This document shows positions 1 through 60,859 of a stretch of 64,000 bases of DNA, piece by piece (position 1 is the stretch's first letter; the number at the start of each line of letters is the position of its first letter). The notes below the pieces were generated by a model, which was not told the origin of the DNA, searched no databases, and saw only the letters and a list, made by a program, of their open reading frames with translations. The translations under genes and the position numbers were made by a program. This DNA is from Tubulanus polymorphus (taxonomy: Eukaryota > Nemertea > Palaeonemertea > Tubulaniformes > Tubulanidae). The DNA lies in the NCBI RefSeq assembly GCF_964204645.1, contig NC_134029.1, positions 3,233,001-3,297,000 on the forward strand, in the 5' to 3' direction.

Positions 1-126
1 ATGTTCTAGTCGATCTGGTCTCGAAAACGTTTTACCACAGTTTTCGAAGGAACACAGATACACTGACGGCCTCGTTGATTTAATTTCACGGTTAGTTTTA
101 CCAGAAACAACGTCCCCGTCAGCCAT
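1..126 (-). CDS. C2H2 zinc-finger protein, N-terminal part only (possibly TFIIIA-like), cut by window edge
   Basis: Reading leftwards from an ATG at 126, the frame stays open for 42 codons to the window edge. It gives a short N-terminal tail followed by the first half of a classical C2H2 finger: YLCSFENCGKTFSRPDRLEH, with metal-binding cysteines at residues 25 and 30 (C-x4-C) and the finger aromatic and leucine at the expected spacing. The first zinc-binding histidine would be residue 43, outside the window. The C-x4-C spacing and the 'CxFxxCGKxF' start recall TFIIIA and related multi-finger nucleic-acid-binding proteins, but one half-finger cannot fix the family. It is transcribed away from the HJURP-like gene, with start codons 345 bp apart, so the two may share a promoter. 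Confidence 0.7.
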   Translation of the reverse strand, partial: MADGDVVSGKTNREIKSTRPSVYLCSFENCGKTFSRPDRLEH

Positions 127-471: not shown

Positions 472-3400
472 ATGGAGGATAAGCTAGAACGAATGTTTAG
501 TGGGTTTGCTGATTCGAAGAGTAAATTTATTTACGCTTATGAATCTATCATTGAAAAGGTAATTCTACTAAAAAACTTAAGTCAAGAATAAGAAGATATT
601 GTTTCAATGTTTGTTTATTATCTTCTCGTCTCATCTAGGCCTAATTAATAATAGCGCGTTCGATTATCTTTTCCTAGTAAGCCTGGATGCGTTCGATTTA
701 TCCATCACTTGATAGTTTGGGCTGCCCCGGGCAAGTTAAAGTGAGCGACTCCCAGAGCAGGTTACTTTAAACTTCCCTGGGTAAGCCCGAACTATCACGT
801 GACGGATAAATCAAACGCGTCCGGGCTATCCCTGGGTATACTAAGAGAAGATAATCGAACGCGCTATAAGACAGTCTACCTGGCCTGGCCCTGGTCCTGG
901 AAGGATCACCGACTCCTTGTCTGATGACTGAGTCTCTCACTCTCAGAGGAGTCTGATGGAATTCTTCCTTAACTCAGATAGACAAAGACATTGTTAAACT
1001 TTTCGGACCTGTTATCGCTTCACTACTGCTTTTAGTATTGTATTGTTCCACAGGCACTTGACATAGACACTATTTTTCTCTTTCCTTTTTTTGGTTCAAT
1101 TATATGGTATAATAACTAAGGACTGCAATTTGACTGGCATGAATTATCAGCTTTATCTCATATTGTCACTTTTTTCTCTGTTTATTTAGTATAATCACGA
1201 GTTTCCAGATTGCGACATCATCGATCCAACAAGCTTGACGATCGTTGAGAATAGGGGTATTTAATTGATTATCATTTCGAGCTTCTTTCCGATTAATGAC
1301 CAAATTGTCATTATATAGCTGAATCATTTTTCTTTCTTTGTGTTTTAGGGCAACTGGCAAAGAGCACATTTAAGCCAGTGAAATTAGGGACATCGATCTT
1401 AGTTAATCCATCCACAAGTAATCTCACTTTTGATCTGAGTAAGTATTTGACGAGGAAAGGGATTAGATTTGAGGAGAGTTACTAAACAGTTTTGATGAAA
1501 TCTTATGATTCTATTGATTAAATTTCAGGTAAACCTGATCATGAAAATGAAAACGATATAACGGTAAATACGACATAAGTTCAATAATGAAATATAAATA
1601 TCCTGGTAATTTTTTTTCACCTAGAAATTAGAAAAGTTACTCAGCAGATCCTTAATCGAACTCATGAAAAAACAGCCTAAAATACTATCATTACCACAAT
1701 ACAAAAGAAAGAAGAGTCCTTAAAGTTTCCTTGAGCTTATTGTTTATTTCAACATTTTGACTATCTTTATTTAAATAGTCACCTTCATTTATACTGATGG
1801 ATGAACTAAAATGACTATTAGGAATGCTTATGCACATACGCTAGTTGAAATGTAAAAAACACTCAAGCTGAAGGAAACATTTTGCTGGACTCATTTTTCT
1901 CTTGTAGTATGGACAGAGACGTGTTTCATCAATATTTTCTTTACATAAAGGTGTCGACGAATATTAGCCATGTGTACAGACGATGGGACACTGTGTTAAA
2001 CAAGGCAGAAATAACTGCTGTTGAAGGTATAATATATTGAGTTGAACTATAAAAAAAATGGGCCCTAGCCAGGGAAATAATTGGGATAGATTTGGAATAG
2101 AACACTAACCGCTGTTTGTGAGTTATCCTAATTATTTCTTAACAATTCAAATTTTCAATAATCTTTTCCCCATTTTCTTTATGTAGATTACAAACCATTC
2201 ATTCATTGAAATTAACTCTCTTTAAAGAATTTCCCTTATTATTTTTTAAGAATTATTTTTGGATCACGAAATGTTGGATGATGAAGGACTCGATTGTGAA
2301 ACGATTACTTCTACGTCATCTGTAGATTACGATACCGAAGAGGAAGTGACCCCTAGTGAGGTGAGACTGAAATCGGGATCCCTACGACTCCTTGATTCCT
2401 TAAAAACTCATTCAAAGTAGAAAATGCTTTTAAAAGTGCTTGAAACTCCTTTAATTTGAACAAAATGTCTATGACTCCTTTAAAACTCTTTCAATTTTGA
2501 GAAATAGGCAGTTAGAAATTTGTATTTACTTTTTAGTTTGCAGTTATTTAGTAGACATTTGCATCAACCGAATTAGAAGGTTATCAAATTAGAACCGAGT
2601 TTAATAATGAAAAGGATACAAATTTGCTAACAAAACCACCGAATCAATTAACGGTACCAAATTTAGGGGGAGTCTTCTGGATTGAGATATGAGAGTAATG
2701 CAGATACTTCCTCGAAATTTGAAATTTTCTCCCACATCTATGAAACTCAGCCATGCTTTTCTCATTTTTATTGGATATCCAGGAAAAACTTCTCGAAGAG
2801 GAATCGTCGTTAGAGGAAATCAATTCGTCTAACGTTGATCGAGATGAAAATGCGATTTCACCGTTGAAACGAGAATTATTTCCAGATGCGGACTCGCGCA
2901 CGCGGGAGTGTAGATCTGAAGCGCGATTGGCGAATGAAACGTATCGTGTCATTAAAAAACCATCCCATGACAGCGGATTGTCGTCGTTAAAGACGAGCAT
3001 TTCATTGAGCTCACTGGCGGAACTCGAACACAACGCCGCGCACGAGAAACGCAACCCACAAACAAACTCAAGTCATCGGCGTCGAGTGAATCTAATTACT
3101 TTAAAGAGAAAATCTCCATCTTCGGGACGCGATAGCCCTGAAAATTCTGATCGTTTGATAGTGAATGAAAACACTGGTCGAGTAGTGACGTTAGGGAATT
3201 TTAACGCGACTGTCAGCAGCGTTTGTGATAAAATACACGACGAAACAGACGGTGAAACACTGTTAGAAAATAACTACCAATCTAAAACTCTGAGTACCTG
3301 TCATCAGTATGATGATGATTACAGCGATGATGATGAAATAACGTTGTTAAAGGATGATGAAGTGACATGCATTAAAGAAGATTTCCGAAGTCCCGACCAA

Positions 3401-5566
3401 CTGAAGTTATATCGAAAATACGAAAACAATAAGAAAGTTTCGCAATGGCTCGATAAGGTTGCGCATTCATGTTTTAGTCAGAACGAATCAGATGCGTTTC
3501 GCATGAATCGGGATGAATCTCAGCATTATCGAGAGACTCGTGACGTGTTGGCGATATCTCCAGATGTTTGGAGGGGAAAGGTACTACTGTCTCGGAGTGA
3601 TCCAACTCAGAAGAACCAAGTTACCGGTATGACTCCAAGTATTCGGTTTAGCAGCGGTATGGATTTTAGGAGAGACCCGGTTGATTCACCAAATAGCGAG
3701 AAAGTAACGCCTCGAAGGGACATGATTATTGGATCTCCGATAACTGGAGTTGTATCTCTGAGGGATGATCTCGAATCTCCAACTATCAAAATGAGTAACC
3801 TGTGCTTAGACTCTCCTGCGCGAAGTAAACATTCGTCAGTTTATCAAAACTCAGTTCAAAATGACGCTCCGATAGATTTGACAAAACGTAATTGCGATAC
3901 GCAGATGATATCATACGGTCAGTGCGGAGCGATTGATTTAACTACAAAACCGTCGATGAATATTGAACTGATTTCTGGTCAACGCGAAACACAACAACTC
4001 GAGGCTTTAGATTTAGTTTGTAAACGGATTCAATGTAAAGATTTTAACAAAGTTCAGGATTCGGTAACTCGGTTCGGACATAATGATATCGTTTCTGGCA
4101 ATCTGAGGGAATCGACTAAAGTCGTATATCCTCCGCGTAAAACTCGGGACTATAACATTGCTCGTCGAAGTACTTCATCTTCGAACGAGCATTCAGTCAA
4201 TCGGTCTCCTGGATGTAAGGAATCAGATAAAGTATTTATGGTCCAGTCTCCAAAGACTGCATTGTCTGCTCATGCGCAATCTCCAAAGAGCTATAGTAGT
4301 AATTATGTGGAGGATTGTTCTCTCAAATTTTCTCATGAAAAGAAAATCCCTGAAGTGACGTCTTCTGTTCAGCAATCTCCTCAAACTGCGAGGAATGACA
4401 AAATTCCTCCTGAAGGTGATAAAACTGAAGTACGCATACCCGTAAAATCTCAGCCATCTAAAGATGTTTTCCGATGCCCTGAAGTGCCACGACCTCGGAT
4501 AAAACCATCAGTACCACTAGTGCATGAAATACCTCATTGCAAACTTACTGAATCTGATCGATGTCATGAAACATGCCGGATAGATTTGAAACCGATGAAC
4601 CTAGCACTTCAGCCTTATGTGAGGCTGACTGATCTAGCTGCGCAGCCTCATGTGAGCCCTACCGATACGCTACCAGTTACTCAGCCTCAAGTGAAACCAG
4701 CACTTGTCAATCAGGTGAGACATTGTGTCCAAGTCCATTGTCAAAAGGAGTCTCCGGTGAGACCTGCTGAGCCAGTTATTCAGCGTCAACTGAGATCTAC
4801 TGTCCCAGTTCGGTGCCAGAAAGAGGCTCAAGTTAAACCTGCTGAACCTATCTCTCAGCCTCATGCAAGATTGGCTGATGCTGAATCAGTTGCTGAGCCT
4901 CAAACGAGATCTGCTGAACCAGTCACTACTTCAGTGAAATCAACATCGCAAGTACGGCGTCTACGGCATCAAAAAGAACCTCGCGCAAGACTTTTTAATT
5001 GTATTCAGCCTTCTCCAGCACGACCTACTGAATTAGTGGAACCTTCGTTTAAAACTCTTGTTTATCCATCGCCATTGGTCACTAGTACTCCGCTGGCTAA
5101 ACTTAAAGATAAACTAGAAGTGTCGGATGATATATCCGAAATCACTCCATGTTACCGTCGGCCTGTTGGTGCGAAGCTGGCGATTAGTGAAAAAAAGTCT
5201 GATCCGAAGTATTTGAAAACTGTTTTACCGATACGCGAAGATGAGTTCAAAGTCCTGTGTGATTCTAGTTCTGATGATGTTAGGAAAGCGAATCCGGTTA
5301 AAAGAAAGTTATCTCATGGAGATTTTGCGGTTTCTAAAAATAAGTGTCGTAAACGCGAATCTGATTTTACTGAAAATAATCAAGACTCATCGTCGCTGCC
5401 ACGGAAAGAATATTTGGGCAAGCGGAAGGCTGCGAGGTCGAGAAAACAAAAAACTTTTGAAAAGGAAAATAGCTCGAATAATTCAAATAGAAATTTGTCT
5501 TCTTGCACTGGTCAAGTTTATTGTAAAAAATTGTTCTGTTTTCGATGTTCTGAGAATCAGCCTTAA
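472..5566 (+). CDS. HJURP-like: Scm3/HJURP-domain protein, candidate CENP-A (CenH3) chaperone, long isoform of about 1,082 aa
   Basis: Proposed coding exons: 472-558, 1190-1256, 1349-1438, 1529-1563, 1951-2026, 2251-2360 and 2783-5566. All have GT-AG borders and compatible phases. Exons 1-3 give an Scm3-type domain: a helix ending in SIIEKYNHEFPD, then DPTSLTIVENRGQL. Known HJURP proteins have 'LIEKYNQPFED ... ATLTYET..G' at this point, and fungal Scm3 has a similar KY...D...(T/G)x(I/L)V...G(H/Q)L block. Such proteins bind CENP-A/H4 and load it at centromeres. The last exon (927 codons) is low-complexity, rich in Ser-Pro, acidic and basic patches, with PIDLTKR, AIDLTTK and ALDLVCK motifs at 3869-4026. 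No HJURP C-terminal repeat was recognised. An in-frame ATG at 463 is an alternative start. The exon 1563-to-1951 join is the least certain: a separate downstream gene starting at ATG 1909 is possible. Confidence 0.65.
654..864. mobile_element. MITE with roughly 100-bp terminal inverted repeats in intron 1 of the HJURP-like gene
   Basis: The left end GCGCGTTCGATTATCTT is repeated inverted at the right end (AAGATAATCGAACGCGC). Imperfect pairing continues for about 100 bp on each side (GCGTTYGATTTATCC, TGATAGTTYGGGCT), nearly to the middle. It is flanked by TA at 652-653 and 865-866, which fits a TA target duplication. It has no coding capacity. Confidence 0.75.
1625..1723 (+). CDS. Alternative terminal exon of the HJURP-like gene (short isoform of about 125 aa)
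   Basis: A good acceptor (pyrimidine tract then CACCTAG) ends at 1624. Joined in phase 0 to the exon ending at 1563, it adds 32 residues: a Leu/Lys-rich helix-like stretch (KLEKLLSRSLIELMKK) and a basic end (YKRKKSP) before TAA at 1721-1723. The product would be little more than the Scm3 domain with a basic tail. No in-frame strong donor leads onward and no AATAAA was seen just downstream, so it may be an alternative last exon, a poison exon, or the true end of a short gene separate from the large exon at 2783. Confidence 0.45.
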   Translation, partial: KLEKLLSRSLIELMKKQPKILSLPQYKRKKSP

Positions 5567-6878
5567 AACCGTAAATGATACTGTTTACTTCAAACCGCTG
5601 TCATTTATCAAAAACTCAAATTGGAAACTAAACTTTCCTGCGTGAAGGGAAGATTTGTCAGTTTAATTGGTCAAAGATGGTTTTCAGATAGAAAAAAACA
5701 GTATTTCGATATGATTCATCATTCGATCAAAACATTCGATTTTAGACTCAATTTCGGACTACAGAGTAAACTTTTTCACAGTGCATGTAACCTTTACCCC
5801 ATTTGACACTTTATTGATACCTTTGCTATTTTTGGGACCACAATCAGTTGCATAACTGTAGCTCACGACATGTTCAATGATTGTGTTTGTATCTATATGT
5901 TCACCAGGGGGTGTTGATTATTGAAATTGATAGTTCAGCATCTTAAACCACTTTTCACCAAGTTAGTAACCTGTCTGTGGTTAGACTGGATATTTTCACA
6001 AACCACAAAAAGGTATAAGGTATAAGCCCAACCAATTAATGAAAATGATGAAGTAACTAACTACATTGTGTTCCCAAGTGGGCATGGTGTCCCTGAACCC
6101 CTAGTTTAATGATTAGATCCTTGGCTTCATTTAAATTACATGAATGATATAATTTTAAAACTCTTATCAGTGGTAATTATGAGCGTTTACGTTATTTTTA
6201 CTGTTATGTACTGGTACATAAATATAAGATTGTATCTTTGTTGTAGCCTTCAGTTATTTATGTAAATGTCTTTAAAAAATGTACTTAGCAATAATTCCTC
6301 GTTTGGTTTTTAATTTTAAGGAGTGTATTTCTATGAATGTATGGATGGAGATGACCCATTGCAATTTTCATTTTCCCCAGTACGTAAGAAAAAGGAGAAT
6401 ATCTTTTTTTTCAATTACATTAAGTCTTGGAGGTAACCACCCGCAAGGAACCCAGTGCCCCTATTTCAACCGTACGGTGTCGCCATCTAAATAGTGAAGA
6501 GGAAGGAGTCTCGTGCCAATGACGTCATTTCATATATTTACATAGGCGGCGAACCGGCCATTTCTAGGATTATTCAATGCGCTCAAAATATAGTTCGTAC
6601 TTTATTACAAATTTTCAATATTTTTCCTCGCCGACAAAACACTGATATTACACCAATATATTGATTATACACTCTGAAATATAAAACAATTAGAATAAAG
6701 TAAATTCGGCTTTTGATAGAATCGTTTTAGACGCGCGAACGAATACAGTTCATCTAAAATTAGCTGTAGATTCCGGAGAGATTCATGTTTTCCATCCAAA
6801 AATAGCTCAATAGGACAAACACTGCTCTACTGGTCAGTAAAAATAGACATAATCTCTCCTCATATTTGTTGTCGTTGT
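5567..6878. other. 3' flank of the HJURP-like gene, AT-rich, no gene recognised
   Basis: Follows the TAA at 5564-5566. No canonical AATAAA is seen close to the stop. Short open frames here lack any recognisable motif and overlap each other. Confidence 0.4.
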
Positions 6879-11930: not shown

Positions 11931-12699
11931 GTTGTTTGTTGGGAATTTTAATTTTTAAAGTTGATTTTCAATCAAATTTGAACTGAATTTTTTAGGCTTC
12001 CGAACCTGAATACTATCAAACAAGTCATCGAATAGCTATACGATGATTAATTTTCTCACTCGATGTATGGTATAGATTTCAGTGTAAATTCTTTTTATAA
12101 ATTGGAAAAGTTGATTCAAATTTAACGAAATGTAGAAGACATTGAAGGTAATCGAGTAACCAGTACTAGGGACCAGGAAGTCCAGAAAAGTGTTTGAAAC
12201 CTTTGGCTACAGGCATGGCCACTCTCAGAATACAGCTGAATGTTTTCCAAATACCCTGAACCCATCGCAAATCACTTCACACCTATATTGTAATGGTGAT
12301 GGAGTACATATTTCCCCCCTTTTCTAGAATGCTGGATCTGTCCTTAATTTTGTGTTCAGTTCATCCCTGGATGGAGATCATCATGTGAATGAACGATGGC
12401 TTCAAGGCTATCAGTGACGTGTAATGAATAGTTGCGATGTTCAAGTTCTAAAATATATTCTGGATAAATTGTTGTTATTTTACGTAAGCAATGATGTTCA
12501 AAAATAATAATCATACCGATCCATCATGTGATCTAAAAACAGGCGGTCTCCTCTATCCTTTCTTCATCCCAACAACAATTACTTTGTGGAATACTTTTCC
12601 TATGTCTGTTTCGTAGCCAAAGACAGATATCCCTGTCACTTTCAAAAACTTAGTAAACCTACCTAACGTATATTATATCTCTTTCATTATTATTATTTT

Positions 12700-13085
12700 G
12701 TTGGGTGGATGTTCTGTTGGACCAGTATTCTGTTGGGTGGATGTTCTGTTGGCCCAGTATTCTGTTGGGTGGATTGTCTTGTTGGGCCACTGTTCTGTTG
12801 GGTGGATATTCTGTTGGGTGGATATTCTGTTGGGCCACTGTTCGGTTGGATGGATATTCTGTTGGGTGGATGTTCTGTTGGGTGGATGTTCTGTTGGGTA
12901 GATGTTCTGTTGGGTGGATATTCTGTTGGGTGGATGTTCTGTTGGGTGGATATTCTGTTGGGTGGATGTTCTGTTGGGTGGATGTTCTGTTGGGTGGATG
13001 TTCTGTTGGGTGGATGTTCTGTTGGGTGGATGTTCTGTTGGGTGGATGTTCTGTTGGGTGGATGTTCTGTTGGGTGTATATTCTG
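12700..13085. repeat. 16-bp minisatellite (unit GTTGGGTGGATGTTCT)
   Basis: About 24 tandem copies, with variants GGATATTCT and GGCCACTGTTCT concentrated in the left third and near-perfect units on the right. Because 16 is not a multiple of 3 and the unit has no stop, all frames on both strands appear open; these are not genes. Confidence 0.95.
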
Positions 13086-48084: not shown

Positions 48085-49665
48085 TATGGTATAGTGGTGC
48101 GATGTCGATATTTGGTAGTGTATGTGGAATTAGTGGTGTGATGTCGATGTTTGCAAGTGTATGTGGAATTAGTAGTGTGATGTCGATGTTTGGTAGTGTA
48201 TATGGTATAGTGGTGCGATGTCGATATTTGGTAGTGTATGTGGAATTAGTGGTGTGATGTCGATGTTTGGTAGTGTATGTGGTATAGTGGTGTGATGTCG
48301 ATGTTTGGTAGTGTATATGGTATAGTGGTATGCTGTCGATATTTGGTAGTGTATGTGGAATTAGTGGTGTGATGTCGATATTTGGTAGTGTATGTGGAAT
48401 AAGTGGTGTGATGTCGATGTTTGGTAGTGTATATGGTATAGTGGTATGCTGTCGATATTTGGTAGTGTATGTGGAATTAGTGGTATGATGTCGATATTTG
48501 GTAGTGTATGTGGAACTATTGGTGTGATGTCGATGTTTGGTAGTGTATATGGTATAGTGATGTGATGTCGATATTTGGTAGTGTATGTGGAATTAGTGGT
48601 GTGATGTCGATGTTTGCAAGTGTATGTGGAATTAGTGGTATGTTTTTGATGTTTGGTACTGTTTGTGGAATGTGGTGTGATGTCGATGTTTGGTACTGTA
48701 TGTGGTATACAGTTGTATGATATGTCGATGTTTGGTAGTGTATATGGTATAGTGATGTGATGTCGATATTTGGTATTGTATGTGGAATGTGGTGTGATGT
48801 CGATGTTTGGTAGTGTATGTAGAATTAGTGGTGTGATGTCGATGTTTGGTAGTGTATGTGATATAGTGGTGTGATGTCGATATTTGGTATTGTATGTGGA
48901 ATTAGTGGTGTGATGTCGATGTTTGCAAGTGTATGTGGAATTAGTGGTATGTTTTTGATGTTTGGTACTGTTTGTGGAATGTGGTGTGATGTCGATGTTT
49001 GGTAGTGTATGTGGTATACAGTTGTATGATATGTCGATGTTTGGTAGTGTATATGGTATAGTGATGTGATGTCAATATTTGGTAGTGTATGTGGAATGTG
49101 GTGTGATGTCGATGTTTGGTAGTGTATGTGGAATGTGGTGTGATGTCGATGTTTGGTACTGTATGTGGAATGTGGTGTGATGTCGATGTTTGGTAGTGTA
49201 TGTGGTATACAGTTGTATGATATGTCGATGTTTGGTAGTGTATGTGGTATAGTGGTATGTTTTCGATATTTGGTAGTGTATGCGGTAAACAGTTGTATGA
49301 TATGGCGATGTTTGGTAGTGTATATGGTATAGTGGTATGATGTCGATATTTGGTAGTGTATATGGAATAGTGGTGTGATGTCGATGTTTGGTAGTGTATG
49401 TGTTATACAGTTGTATGATATGTCGATGTTTGGTAGTGTATATGGTATAGTGGTATGATGTCGATATTTGGTAGTGTATGTGTTATACAGTTGTATGATA
49501 TGTCGATGTTTGGTAGTGTATATGGTATAGTGGTATGATGTCGATGTTTGGTAGTGTATGTGGAATTAGTGGTGTGATGTCGATGTTTGGTAGTGTATAT
49601 GGTATAGTGGTATGATGTCGATATTTGGTAGTGTATGTGGTATTGTGGTGTTTTGTAATGTAGTT
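48085..49665. repeat. 38-39-bp minisatellite, main array
   Basis: About 40 units built on GATGTCGATGTTTGGTAGTG with alternating linkers (TATGTGGAATTAGTGGTGT, TATATGGTATAGTGGTAT, TATGTGGTATACAGTTGTAT). Variants recur in blocks, so higher-order repeats of several units exist. Confidence 0.95.
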
Positions 49666-55517: not shown

Positions 55518-55656
55518 GCCTCCGTTAGAGGCTATCAAAAATTGCACTACCGACCTTGCGGTCGTCAGTGCGGGGTATTGGGTATAGTTTTCAACTAGCA
55601 ATAACCACGCCTCGGATAAACCTCATTGGCTATGGTACCGCCACTGCGCAAAGCTA
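55518..55656. repeat. 139-bp interspersed repeat, copy 1
   Basis: Starts GCCTCCGTTAGAGGCTATC and ends CACTGCGCAAAGCTA. It differs from copy 2 (57699-57836) by a single T. It contains hairpins (GCCTC..GAGGC, CGACCTTGCGGTCG). No tRNA-like promoter was recognised and no clear target duplication. Confidence 0.9.
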
Positions 55657-56137: not shown

Positions 56138-56210
56138 GGCTTTGTGGCTAAGCGGTTAAAGCGCCTGTCTAGTAAACAGGAGATCCTGGGTTCAAATCCC
56201 AGCAAAGCCT
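56138..56210 (+). tRNA. tRNA-Thr (anticodon AGT)
   Basis: A complete 73-nt cloverleaf: acceptor stem GGCTTTG/CAAAGCC, D arm GCTAAGCGGTTAAAGC, anticodon stem CCTGT/ACAGG with loop CTAGTAA (anticodon AGT, read as IGU, threonine ACU codons), variable AGATC, T arm CTGGG-TTCAAAT-CCCAG, discriminator T. No intron. The T-run immediately after it is a normal RNA polymerase III terminator. Confidence 0.97.
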
Positions 56211-56823: not shown

Positions 56824-57395
56824 TTGAGAGTTGTAGAGTCCAGATGAGAGTTGTAGAGTTCGGATGAGAGTTGTAGAGTCCAAATGAGAGTTGTAGAGTT
56901 CGGATGAGAGTTGTAGAGTTCGGATGAGAGTTGTAGAGTTCGGATGAGAGTTGTAGAGTCCAGATGAGAGTTGTAGAGTTCGGATGAGAGTCGTAGAGTC
57001 CAGATGAGAGTTGTAGAGTTCGGATGAGAGTTGTAGAGTTCGGATGAGAGTTGTAGAGTTCGGATGAGAGTTGTAGAGTCCAAATGAGAGTTGTAGAGTC
57101 CAGATGAGAGTTGTAGAGTTCGGATGAGAGTTGTAGAGTCCAAATGAGAGTTGTAGAGTTCGGATGAGAGTTGTAGAGTCCAGATGAGAGTTGTAGAGTC
57201 CAGATGAGAGTTGTAGAGTTCGGATGAGAGTTGTAGAGTCCAAATGAGAGTTGTAGAGTTCGAATAAGAGTTTACATGAGAGTTGTAGAGTTCGGATGAG
57301 AGTTGTAGAGTCCAAATGAGAGTTGTAGAGTTCGAATAAGAGTTTACATGAGAGTTGTAGAGTTCGGATGAGAGTTGAAGAGTTTACATGAGAGT
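56824..57395. repeat. 20-bp minisatellite (GAGAGTTGTAGAGTYCRRAT)
   Basis: About 28 tandem units with three common variants (TCCAGAT, TTCGGAT, TCCAAAT), decaying at the right end. As 20 is not divisible by 3, the open minus frames through it repeat every 20 residues and are not evidence of a protein. Confidence 0.95.
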
Positions 57396-57698
57396 TGAAT
57401 CAAAATACAAACAAATGCTATCGTCGCACCTCTGTTTTATTTTGTATCTCTTAATTATTTGATTGCTTTTTGAGTTGTCAAATGATTTCTCCAAGTAGAG
57501 ATCGACGATAGTCAACATGATGAGGTAAAACTTCGCATTGAATCGCGACGAAGAATAAAATATAAGACCCACAATAACGAGCGCGAAAAACTGAAAATAG
57601 CGTCCTTTTTAGCGTAACCCGTAAATTCGACTTTTAACACATGTAAATACCGAGGAAACAGATGGATGGATTAGTTTCTAATTTTCTTTTTGAAGACT

Positions 57699-57836
57699 GC
57701 CTCCGTAGAGGCTATCAAAAATTGCACTACCGACCTTGCGGTCGTCAGTGCGGGGTATTGGGTATAGTTTTCAACTAGCAATAACCACGCCTCGGATAAA
57801 CCTCATTGGCTATGGTACCGCCACTGCGCAAAGCTA
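57699..57836. repeat. 139-bp interspersed repeat, copy 2 (138 bp)
   Basis: Nearly identical to 55518-55656 in the same orientation, implying recent spread or local duplication. Confidence 0.9.
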
Positions 57837-59590
57837 CCGTTTTTTGTAAACTAAAGCGTTAAGTACCGAGAAACCAATAGTAAATTGATCGGTATATTTC
57901 CATTGAGCGATGAGAGGGCAACAATTTTTGATGCGTTACGGGGAGGGTACATTAAAAAACCAGTTGCTGAATAATTCAAATTCTTAAAGTATTTTACTAT
58001 TTACGTTCGTTCAAGTTTTGCTATAATTACAAAATAAGAGCGTTTTACGGTAGTTTTGTTTCCCCGTATTTCGTAGATCCGTGGATAGATGGCGGCAGTG
58101 TGGTGATAACGACACGGCTAGCGCGCGTGGCTATTGTGACGACGATTAAATCTTGACGAATAACCTGTCGTCTATCGGCAGATCATCCGTCTAGTATGAT
58201 TTTTCTAGTGAATGCTAAATAAAATTTTAGTGCAGCATTGTCGGTTATAGCTTTGCGCAGGTTGGCGGTACAATAGCCGTAGCGGTTTAAAAGGTTTCCG
58301 GGCAGTTCTTCCCTTCGTGATGAAAGGAATCTTCAACTTTAACCAATAATTTGTGGATCGTATGAATGAACGCGAAGAAAATTATCGAGATGATTTGTTT
58401 GAAAATGAATTGTATTTTCTATCTATTTGAATCTAGTAATCTGTTTAATTGCACGTCTCTTCCGCGATTTATTAGGTCAGATATCTACGTAATGATCATA
58501 TATATATATAATACTAGCTTTGTCTAGGTTTTCATGTTTTTGAAGGTCTCTACGGCGACGCGCGCTTACGAAGGATACCGTGCTGTCGATACCGTGAAGG
58601 ATCTGGTTCGTTGCGTAAAGGAAATTATATCTCTTGGGGGGGAGGTAACATGAATCAAACTAGAGCGATTTAGTGCGGTATAAATCGAATAATATCGACC
58701 CTACCACCGTGACTGAACATTAGAAGTCACTTTGCGGTGTTATAGGACACGCCGATTTTCAGGAACAAATCATAACAGTAATGATTTTAAGATTTGTATT
58801 ATTTGCAGTATACGGTTGAAAGTCATAATTGGAATTAAGACTAACGGTATATAATAACTGTAAGTATTTCGTGTCCGCTTTCATTTCCATCAACCAGATT
58901 TGTGTGTTTTTAGCTCGGGACCGAATCCTATTCGGCAATGATTATCTCATTTCGCTCCTGTTTACTTTTACTGTTTGCCTCGCAAACATTCCAGTATCAT
59001 GTTATTTCTTGAATGATTTCCATCGAGAGAGCGACGCCTTGGAATCGTTATAAATGAAGAGATCTCGCGAAACGTAGCCTGCCCTCTTATATTATGGACG
59101 AAGAGGGTTGCTGCCAATATTAAGAAGGTGTTTTGTTTACCCTTTAGGCGTTTTATTCATTCTTTAGGTTAGAATAAAGTGCAATTTATTGCGTTATGAT
59201 TTCGTTCGGTTCTGCGTAAATCTGTATATGTAACGCAACACTGATGGAGAAGTCGAACAGGTAATAAATAATATGTCAATTGCCACTTTTCAGATCGCTG
59301 ACAAACAGAGAATGTATCAACGCATGTGGTATAAAACCCGCGATTGTTTATCTGGATGTTATCAAACGAAAGAAATTTTCTGAAGTTTAATATGCATTCT
59401 AATTAAAGCCGGCACGCCTGCTTAATGGTTTCTTAATATTTTTTTCGTTGTTTACATAATCGTCGGTAAAGTTGAGCGCACTCGCTGATGTGCCGGACTG
59501 TCGAGTGTGAACTGGTTTAAGCTGTTCTATAGAGTACCCGAAAAAGTGTAAGACCTCTGGTGATTTTATTTTTTTTTAAACGGTTAAATC
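57837..59590. other. Upstream region of the GPCR gene
   Basis: Contains a diverged inverted fragment of the 139-bp repeat at about 58248-58290 (TAGCTTTGCGCAG...GGCGGTAC). A short frame at 58829-59053 has hydrophobic stretches but no recognisable family. No splice structure leading into the GPCR was identified. Confidence 0.35.
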
Positions 59591-60859
59591 ATGGCGTTAA
59601 AAACGACGATTTACGTAGTTTTATTCGCGTGCTGCTTCGTGGCGGTCGTGGAGAATAGAAGAGAATTCCGGTCGAAAATCAAACTTGCAAAAGTTTACGT
59701 TCACGACATCGAAACCCTTCATGACAGTGATTCGCACGTGGAACACAATCATACGTCATTGCCGGAGAAAACCGCGAAAATGTTTCATCGTTACGGATAC
59801 CCGATAATCTGGACGATAGGGGTAGTCTGTAATCTGTTGAGTCTTATACTCTGGCTACAGCCGCGTTTGCGTAATTCAACCGCGTGTTATTTCGCCGCCA
59901 TTGCTACCGTAGATATCATCGTTTTGACTCTGTATTTCGTACATTCGATGGAGTTCGGTTTTAATCTACAAACGGTGAACCATCCCGTATTTTGTCAGGT
60001 ATTTAATGTGTTACTAGTCGGTGGTCAGTACTGTAGCGTGTTATTAGTGTTGGCGATGACCGTCGATAGATTCATAGTCGTTTGGTTTCCGTTGAGGCGG
60101 CTGACGATGTGCTCAATTCGAAGAACGCGCAAGGTCATCGTTTTGGTGGTCATAGTATCTCACGCATGCGCTACGTTGGAAATATTCATGTGGAGCTACA
60201 ATCCGCACGATATTCATTGTAAAATCAACTGGCAAACGCACACTGATTCTGTTCATCATATTTCGCCACTGGCCATCGCCAATTTATTCATGTTCTGTCT
60301 ATGTAGCACTTTACCGATTATAGCGTCGATGATCATCAACTCAATGATCATTTACAAAATCCGACAAACTCAACTGAAACGCCGATTATTCTCGTCGGAA
60401 TCACGCGAGTCAGATATAACACCTACTCTTACTCTACTGGGAGTTTCTTCTTATTTTATCATCAGTGAATTTTTCGCTTTCGTGTCTTACATTTTGCACT
60501 TCGTATTCCGACCCGGAAATGCTTCCGTGCCGCCGTCGAAGAGGTTTCTCGACACGGATTGGAATCGCTATCACCACTACCTGATCTCGAACCTGGCCAT
60601 TGAGATGTTCTCGGTGACCAGTTACGCGTTGAACATGTTTTTGTTTTCGTTGACTGGAAAACGATTTCGGCAAGCTTTACGGGCTAAACTTTGTTGTCGC
60701 GAGGAGCGTTCGTCGAAAGAGTTCACAAGCGTGGGACTGGTTTCATTCGCCATGTCATCAGAGAATAGAACTACAGTCGACGCCATTAGTACTGCCGTCA
60801 CGTTAAAAGACGATCGTGGAATAAAACATAACCGGAATTTCATAAAAGAAATTCTTTGA
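59591..60859 (+). CDS. Class A (rhodopsin-type) seven-transmembrane receptor, probably a peptide or orphan GPCR
   Basis: Single open exon of 422 codons. Residues 1-22 resemble a signal peptide; Asn53 (NHT) is a glycosylation site. Seven hydrophobic helices fall at about 70-90, 100-120, 135-167, 181-201, 225-257, 279-305 and 329-355. TM1 has the conserved Asn (GVVCN), TM2 an Asp (ATVDI). Cys135 and Cys210 can form the TM3-ECL2 disulphide, and TM3 ends MTVDRF in place of DRY. TM7 has NMFLF where NPxxY is usual. A CC pair at 368-369 may be palmitoylated. This resembles the large, lineage-expanded peptide-receptor-like GPCRs (FMRFamide-receptor type) of lophotrochozoans; the ligand cannot be told. 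AATAAA at 60960-60965 follows the stop by 100 bp. Confidence 0.93.
   Translation: MALKTTIYVVLFACCFVAVVENRREFRSKIKLAKVYVHDIETLHDSDSHVEHNHTSLPEKTAKMFHRYGYPIIWTIGVVCNLLSLILWLQPRLRNSTACYFAAIATVDIIVLTLYFVHSMEFGFNLQTVNHPVFCQVFNVLLVGGQYCSVLLVLAMTVDRFIVVWFPLRRLTMCSIRRTRKVIVLVVIVSHACATLEIFMWSYNPHDIHCKINWQTHTDSVHHISPLAIANLFMFCLCSTLPIIASMIINSMIIYKIRQTQLKRRLFSSESRESDITPTLTLLGVSSYFIISEFFAFVSYILHFVFRPGNASVPPSKRFLDTDWNRYHHYLISNLAIEMFSVTSYALNMFLFSLTGKRFRQALRAKLCCREERSSKEFTSVGLVSFAMSSENRTTVDAISTAVTLKDDRGIKHNRNFIKEIL

Follow-up and report, generated by a model that had tools for sequence, protein, structure and literature searches.

Human HJURP is a protein of 748 residues that carries mid and C-terminal repeat domains, both with their own Pfam models, and long tails are a feature of vertebrate HJURP and of Drosophila CAL1 alike. 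An article in Sci Adv (PMC13322267; 1 July 2026) reports orthologs of Scm3/HJURP across Metazoa, zebrafish and C. elegans serving for its functional genetics, and names candidates that include proteins of Biomphalaria glabrata, C. teleta, Priapulus caudatus and the sponge Geodia barretti, among others. As described there, the conserved feature that defines deuterostome HJURP is the scm3 domain, very little homology is found outside this domain in other animals, and the family evolves fast. Its marks, according to the same passages, are a KY dipeptide followed by an acidic/short-hydrophobic strand, as well as a DXGXL motif considered ancestral and said to be less constrained in animals (PMC13322267). 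The article also argues that CAL1 is a diverged but true ortholog of Scm3/HJURP, which contradicts the first-pass annotation of the DNA here analysed, where Drosophila was said to use an unrelated CAL1. Besides this article, no paper devoted to metazoan Scm3/HJURP appeared among the literature matches listed, and none joining "Scm3 domain" with "mollusc" was found. Since animal Scm3/HJURP is already in print (PMC13322267), the gene described below is another member of the family, and the general point is known.

The window, by which the whole 64,000-nucleotide stretch of Tubulanus polymorphus DNA is meant, contains near its beginning a five-exon gene (Table 1) that, judged from sequence, is most likely the Scm3/HJURP ortholog of the species, a chaperone that would escort new CenH3-H4 and load it at centromeres; we hold this reading with high confidence. 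Its predicted protein shares with human HJURP (3R45 chain C) the same helix-then-strand domain, with the IEKYN run followed by F.D and LT common to both, although human HJURP, at 748 residues, is far longer than the 125-residue model. Fungal Scm3 gives its name to the Pfam family PF10384, the profile of which the window protein matches; the likeness observed is one to this profile. The protein ends its domain with NRGQL at the DXGXL site described in PMC13322267, keeping two of the three fixed letters while N replaces D. With the metazoan candidates of that article, compared by description and unaligned, it has in common an Scm3 domain in an otherwise non-conserved protein and the presence of a CenH3 in the genome. 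CAL1 has the same role and, according to this article, the same ancestry; it differs in that DF takes the place of KY in D. melanogaster and in that its C-terminus holds a domain binding CENP-C (PMC13322267).

Gene model and domain assignment

Spliced translation of the window DNA joins the five exons into 125 residues up to the stop codon. The introns separating exons 1, 2 and 3 are GT-AG, and these exons encode MEDKLERMFSGFADSKSKFIYAYESIIEK, YNHEFPDCDIIDPTSLTIVENR(G) and GQLAKSTFKPVKLGTSILVNPSTSNLTFDL(S), respectively. The start codon lies in the context ATCATGG, with a second in-frame ATG at 463. The exon 1-3 join put forward in the first-pass annotation, which leads through the helix IIEK/YNHEF to a strand reaching NRGQL, is indeed present on the forward strand. 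The three exons and their GT-AG introns stand as described, the term "clean" applied to their splice sites being slightly generous, as donors 1, 2 and 3 score 9.4, 3.6 and 5.6 bits, respectively, with a simple generic donor matrix, and the value of donor 2 is equalled or exceeded by 11.25% of all forward-strand GT in the window. Position 1438, formerly given as the end of the gene, is only the end of exon 3, the frame continuing through two further exons to the stop. Codon usage, evaluated with a test trained on the 2783-5566 exon and a GPCR ORF and uninformative for small exons, ranked four of the exons (all but exon 4) no better than random open stretches, 13% to 63% of which scored as high.

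Table 1. Coordinates of the Scm3/HJURP gene, of adjacent features in the window and of the candidate CenH3 gene on C7.
Feature	Coordinates	Strand	Description
Exon 1	472..558	+	start codon and most of the predicted CENP-A-binding helix; ends IIEK, phase 0
Exon 2	1190..1256	+	YNHEFPDCDIIDPTSLTIVENR; completes the KY motif across intron 1; acidic/hydrophobic strand
Exon 3	1349..1438	+	GQL, closing the scm3 domain; the remainder, a linker, lies beyond the match
Exon 4	1529..1563	+	short linker, acidic; entered in phase 1 and left in phase 0; donor 7.0 bits
Exon 5	1625..1723	+	basic C-terminal peptide KLEKLLSRSLIELMKKQPKILSLPQYKRKKSP and stop
Palindromic element, intron 1	651..867	.	two inverted repeats, one inside the other (outer arms 651-679/839-867, inner arms 680-740/767-827)
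C2H2 zinc-finger gene start	1..126	-	MADGDVV...VYLCSFENCGKTFSRPDRLEH; oriented divergently (head to head) to the Scm3 gene
Next gene or possible long C-terminal part	1909-2026, 2251-2360, 2783-5566	+	1003 residues, polar
CenH3 (on C7)	2674537-2674771, 2674085-2674197, 2673539-2673616, 2672379-2672507	-	four exons, 184 residues

When confronted with the Pfam Scm3 profile (PF10384), the curated cut-off of which is 24.3 bits, the 125-residue protein scores 30.1 bits (E 3.9e-7) and its first 57 residues, ending GQLAKS, score 32.4 bits (E 7.5e-8), the match covering profile positions 9-50 of 53, while the next-best Pfam family reaches 12.6 bits against a cut-off of its own of 24.9. Neither exon 1 nor exon 2 has a Pfam match when taken alone, whereas both joined reach 25.4 bits to Scm3, and 32.4 once the start of exon 3 is added. 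Since the match thus draws on sequence from either side of two splice junctions, it speaks in favour of the splicing as modelled. The KY dipeptide is found at the end of the helix, where intron 1 splits it, and is followed by the acidic/short-hydrophobic strand DCDIIDPTSLTIVE.

Among PDB chains, human HJURP (3R45_C) ranks first, with E-values of 0.16 for the 57 residues and 0.63 for the 125 residues that are not significant alone; its ungapped alignment contains 11 identities in 41 residues, including IEKYN..F.D and LT. A two-sequence profile built from the human and window proteins reached in the PDB only HJURP (3R45) and unrelated chains, and no chain of fungal Scm3 or CAL1. With the human and window sequences compared, the earlier view of this domain as intermediate between HJURP and Scm3 remains a conjecture. 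In a large protein collection whose share of animals is uncertain, nine candidates yielded no match at E <= 10.

None of nine controls made from the first 57 residues (one reversed, eight shuffled) matched Scm3, although two gave faint matches elsewhere in Pfam (E 0.057 and 0.14), while a fragment of human HJURP scored 35.8 bits. These data bear on the reading that three open stretches join by chance into something resembling Scm3, with no gene present. The failure of exons 1 and 2 to score in Pfam when alone and the uninformative codon usage would agree with such a coincidence. Nonetheless, considering that (i) the E-value of 3.9e-7 for the protein, set against the 661 two-exon start joins that the two strands of the window offer at similar splice strength (a rough count in which three-exon joins, which would be more, are uncounted), yields a corrected chance expectation of the order of 3e-4, (ii) no control matches Scm3, (iii) the frame is open across five exons with compatible phases, and (iv) a CenH3 and a CENP-C-type cupin occur in the same genome, a chance join is extremely improbable. 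The assignment of this locus as an Scm3/HJURP-domain gene, and hence as a likely CenH3 chaperone, is upheld by a sequence-versus-profile score above the curated cut-off, with the next family far below.

C-terminal end and neighbouring features

The last 33 residues of the protein have a pI of 10.5, and exon 5 alone matches in Pfam only HipN (E 0.029, 14.5 bits), under the HipN cut-off of 23. At E <= 10, PF10384 alone is matched within the 125-residue model, and nothing is matched in the downstream 940-residue ORF (2744-5566); the first 140 residues of the downstream unit are also devoid of Pfam matches at E <= 1. A likeness of exons 4-5 to the human HJURP region preceding the HMD, noticed by eye, was discarded, its best local score of 28 being reached by 1335 of 2000 shuffles, and so was the motif alone compared between exons 4-5 and human HJURP, with a score reached by 1369 of 2000 shuffles. 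The downstream protein contains the stretches PIDLTKR and AIDLTTK, which we take to be CtBP-motif-like.

The scm3 exons might instead be the N-terminus of a far longer HJURP, in which the large polar exon at 2783-5566 would be spliced to exon 4, or to exon 5 in truncated form. Exon 4 (phase 0 out) and position 2783 (phase 0 in) would fit in frame, and the forward strand is free of AATAAA and ATTAAA from the stop of exon 5 up to 1908. This missing poly(A) signal says little, however, since the next forward-strand AATAAA is located at 6694, 1.1 kb past the downstream stop. On the contrary, exon 5 shows a good acceptor and is closed by a stop codon, and the one donor inside it that would keep the frame into 1908 scores 1.3 bits, a value equalled or beaten by 27.8% of all GT. 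The downstream unit, moreover, opens with an ATG of its own at 1909, 185 bp past the Scm3 gene and with an acceptor one base before it. Such a long protein is therefore considered unlikely, though deserving of weight, and two separate genes, the Scm3 gene ending at 1723 and the downstream unit, are favoured; co-transcription of the Scm3 gene with the downstream polar protein is a possibility.

On the opposite side, about 345 bp separate the start of the zinc-finger gene from the Scm3 start codon, and a promoter common to both genes is possible. The first finger of this gene (window 1-126, reverse strand, and locus L003) is above the Pfam zf-C2H2 cut-off and gives an E of 0.069 with the TFIIIA finger model, its finger series being presumably TFIIIA-like. 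Within intron 1, the nested arms of the palindromic element suggest a MITE-like nature.

Other features were recorded further along the window. Two U4 snRNA genes (55519-55655 and 57700-57835, reverse strand) are spaced by about 2.2 kb, and the interval contains a tRNA-Thr gene (56138-56210) and a 20-bp minisatellite (56825-57397). A 16-bp minisatellite occupies 12699-13085, and a repeat array with periods of 77, 116 and 309 bp occupies 48085-49651; long ORFs in both are probably not genes, since the arrays are open in several frames. A single-exon rhodopsin-type GPCR is encoded at 59588-60859 on the forward strand (7tm_1, E 5.6e-18).

Copies and centromeric partners in the same genome

The genome surveyed comprises 267.8 Mb in 77 contigs. 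No second Scm3 copy was found in this assembly, four of the five own-genome matches being the gene of the window itself; the fifth, on C9 (E 0.36, 31%, 2 stops), was considered as a paralog and rejected as a chance match. Searching the same genome with the PF10384 family, a procedure that works exon by exon, gave no matches, and the 14 control genomes were equally silent, in agreement with a domain cut at its KY motif by an intron escaping such a search.

The CenH3 search, for which a fragment of the human CenH3 fold was the query, returned 11 matches, distributed as seven on C10, two on C4, one on C1 and one on C7. The seven C10 matches have one common E-value, and the locus translated, L006, is a canonical H3, while the C4 matches are two exons of an intron-bearing H3. 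Upstream of the exon matched on C7, three further exons complete the gene (Table 1), in the model of which the first exon and its start codon are the least secure. The C7 protein is without the ARTKQ start, and its L1 loop, in which a tryptophan occurs, exceeds that of the species' own H3 by two residues. In the PDB it is matched best by an H3/CENP-A chimera, with plain H3 chains within a few bits behind. The divergent H3 on C1 was ruled out by eye as a CenH3 on account of its ARTKQ-type tail and H3-length L1 loop. This locus (L015, C1:26716223-26716372), with a tail that is ARTKQ-type but otherwise altered and with changed residues in the last helices, is possibly a lineage-specific H3 variant.

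A CENP-C_C exon on C2 reaches 31.7 bits, above the cut-off of 29, and corresponds to a partial cupin; the same piece also exceeds the cut-off of the general cupin family Cupin_3 (26.6 versus 23.5), and the CENP-C_C search gave below-cut-off signals in four of 14 control genomes. The stretch GLRRSRRVRVKPLAYY in this locus, which has no Pfam match, presumably resembles the CENP-C motif. No Mis18 was detected in one Yippee/Mis18 profile search of the genome, in which a single candidate was scored; we take this match to be YPEL5 rather than Mis18.

These surveys are also relevant to the reading of the locus as a real scm3-domain gene that has either diverged to another role or become a decaying copy, with some other protein loading CenH3. 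The fast evolution of the family, as stated in PMC13322267, the shortness of the protein in its simplest model and the failure of one search to find Mis18 would all fit such a fate. Against it, the frame is open throughout, the KY motif is intact and the 267.8 Mb assembly contains no other copy, so that we regard divergence or decay as improbable and retain the gene as the candidate CenH3 chaperone.

Proposed mechanism and meaning

In the mechanism proposed for this candidate chaperone, the helix (SKSKFIYAYESIIEKYNHEF), to which exon 1 and the first part of exon 2 contribute, would lie antiparallel on CenH3 alpha-2, as in the known structures of the family, and the KY pair, placed at the intron 1 junction, would meet the conserved glutamate on CenH3 alpha-2, by analogy with the family's solved complexes. 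The strand after the helix (CDIIDPTSLTIVENRGQL) is expected, from the same known structures, to cover the CenH3 L1 loop, and we propose that in this way the chaperone tells CenH3 from H3. CenH3-H4 so held would then be handed over at centromeres, as the solved complexes suggest, while the basic tail encoded by exon 5 might act in nuclear localisation or as a DNA-binding tail.

A further, tentative and rather doubtful suggestion is that of a minimal CenH3 chaperone of 125 residues, hardly more than an scm3 domain with its basic tail, in which the long part that binds Mis18/CENP-C would be absent. Were this true, and Mis18 really missing, recruitment would go via CENP-C or via the tail itself.

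The locus adds to the family a new Scm3 domain that passes the family cut-off and whose score comes near that of the human fragment (32.4 versus 35.8 bits). The interest of the gene lies in this profile score, in its matched CenH3 and in its possibly minimal length. Moreover, with the Scm3 gene and the CenH3 coming from the same genome, chaperone and client are testable as a pair.
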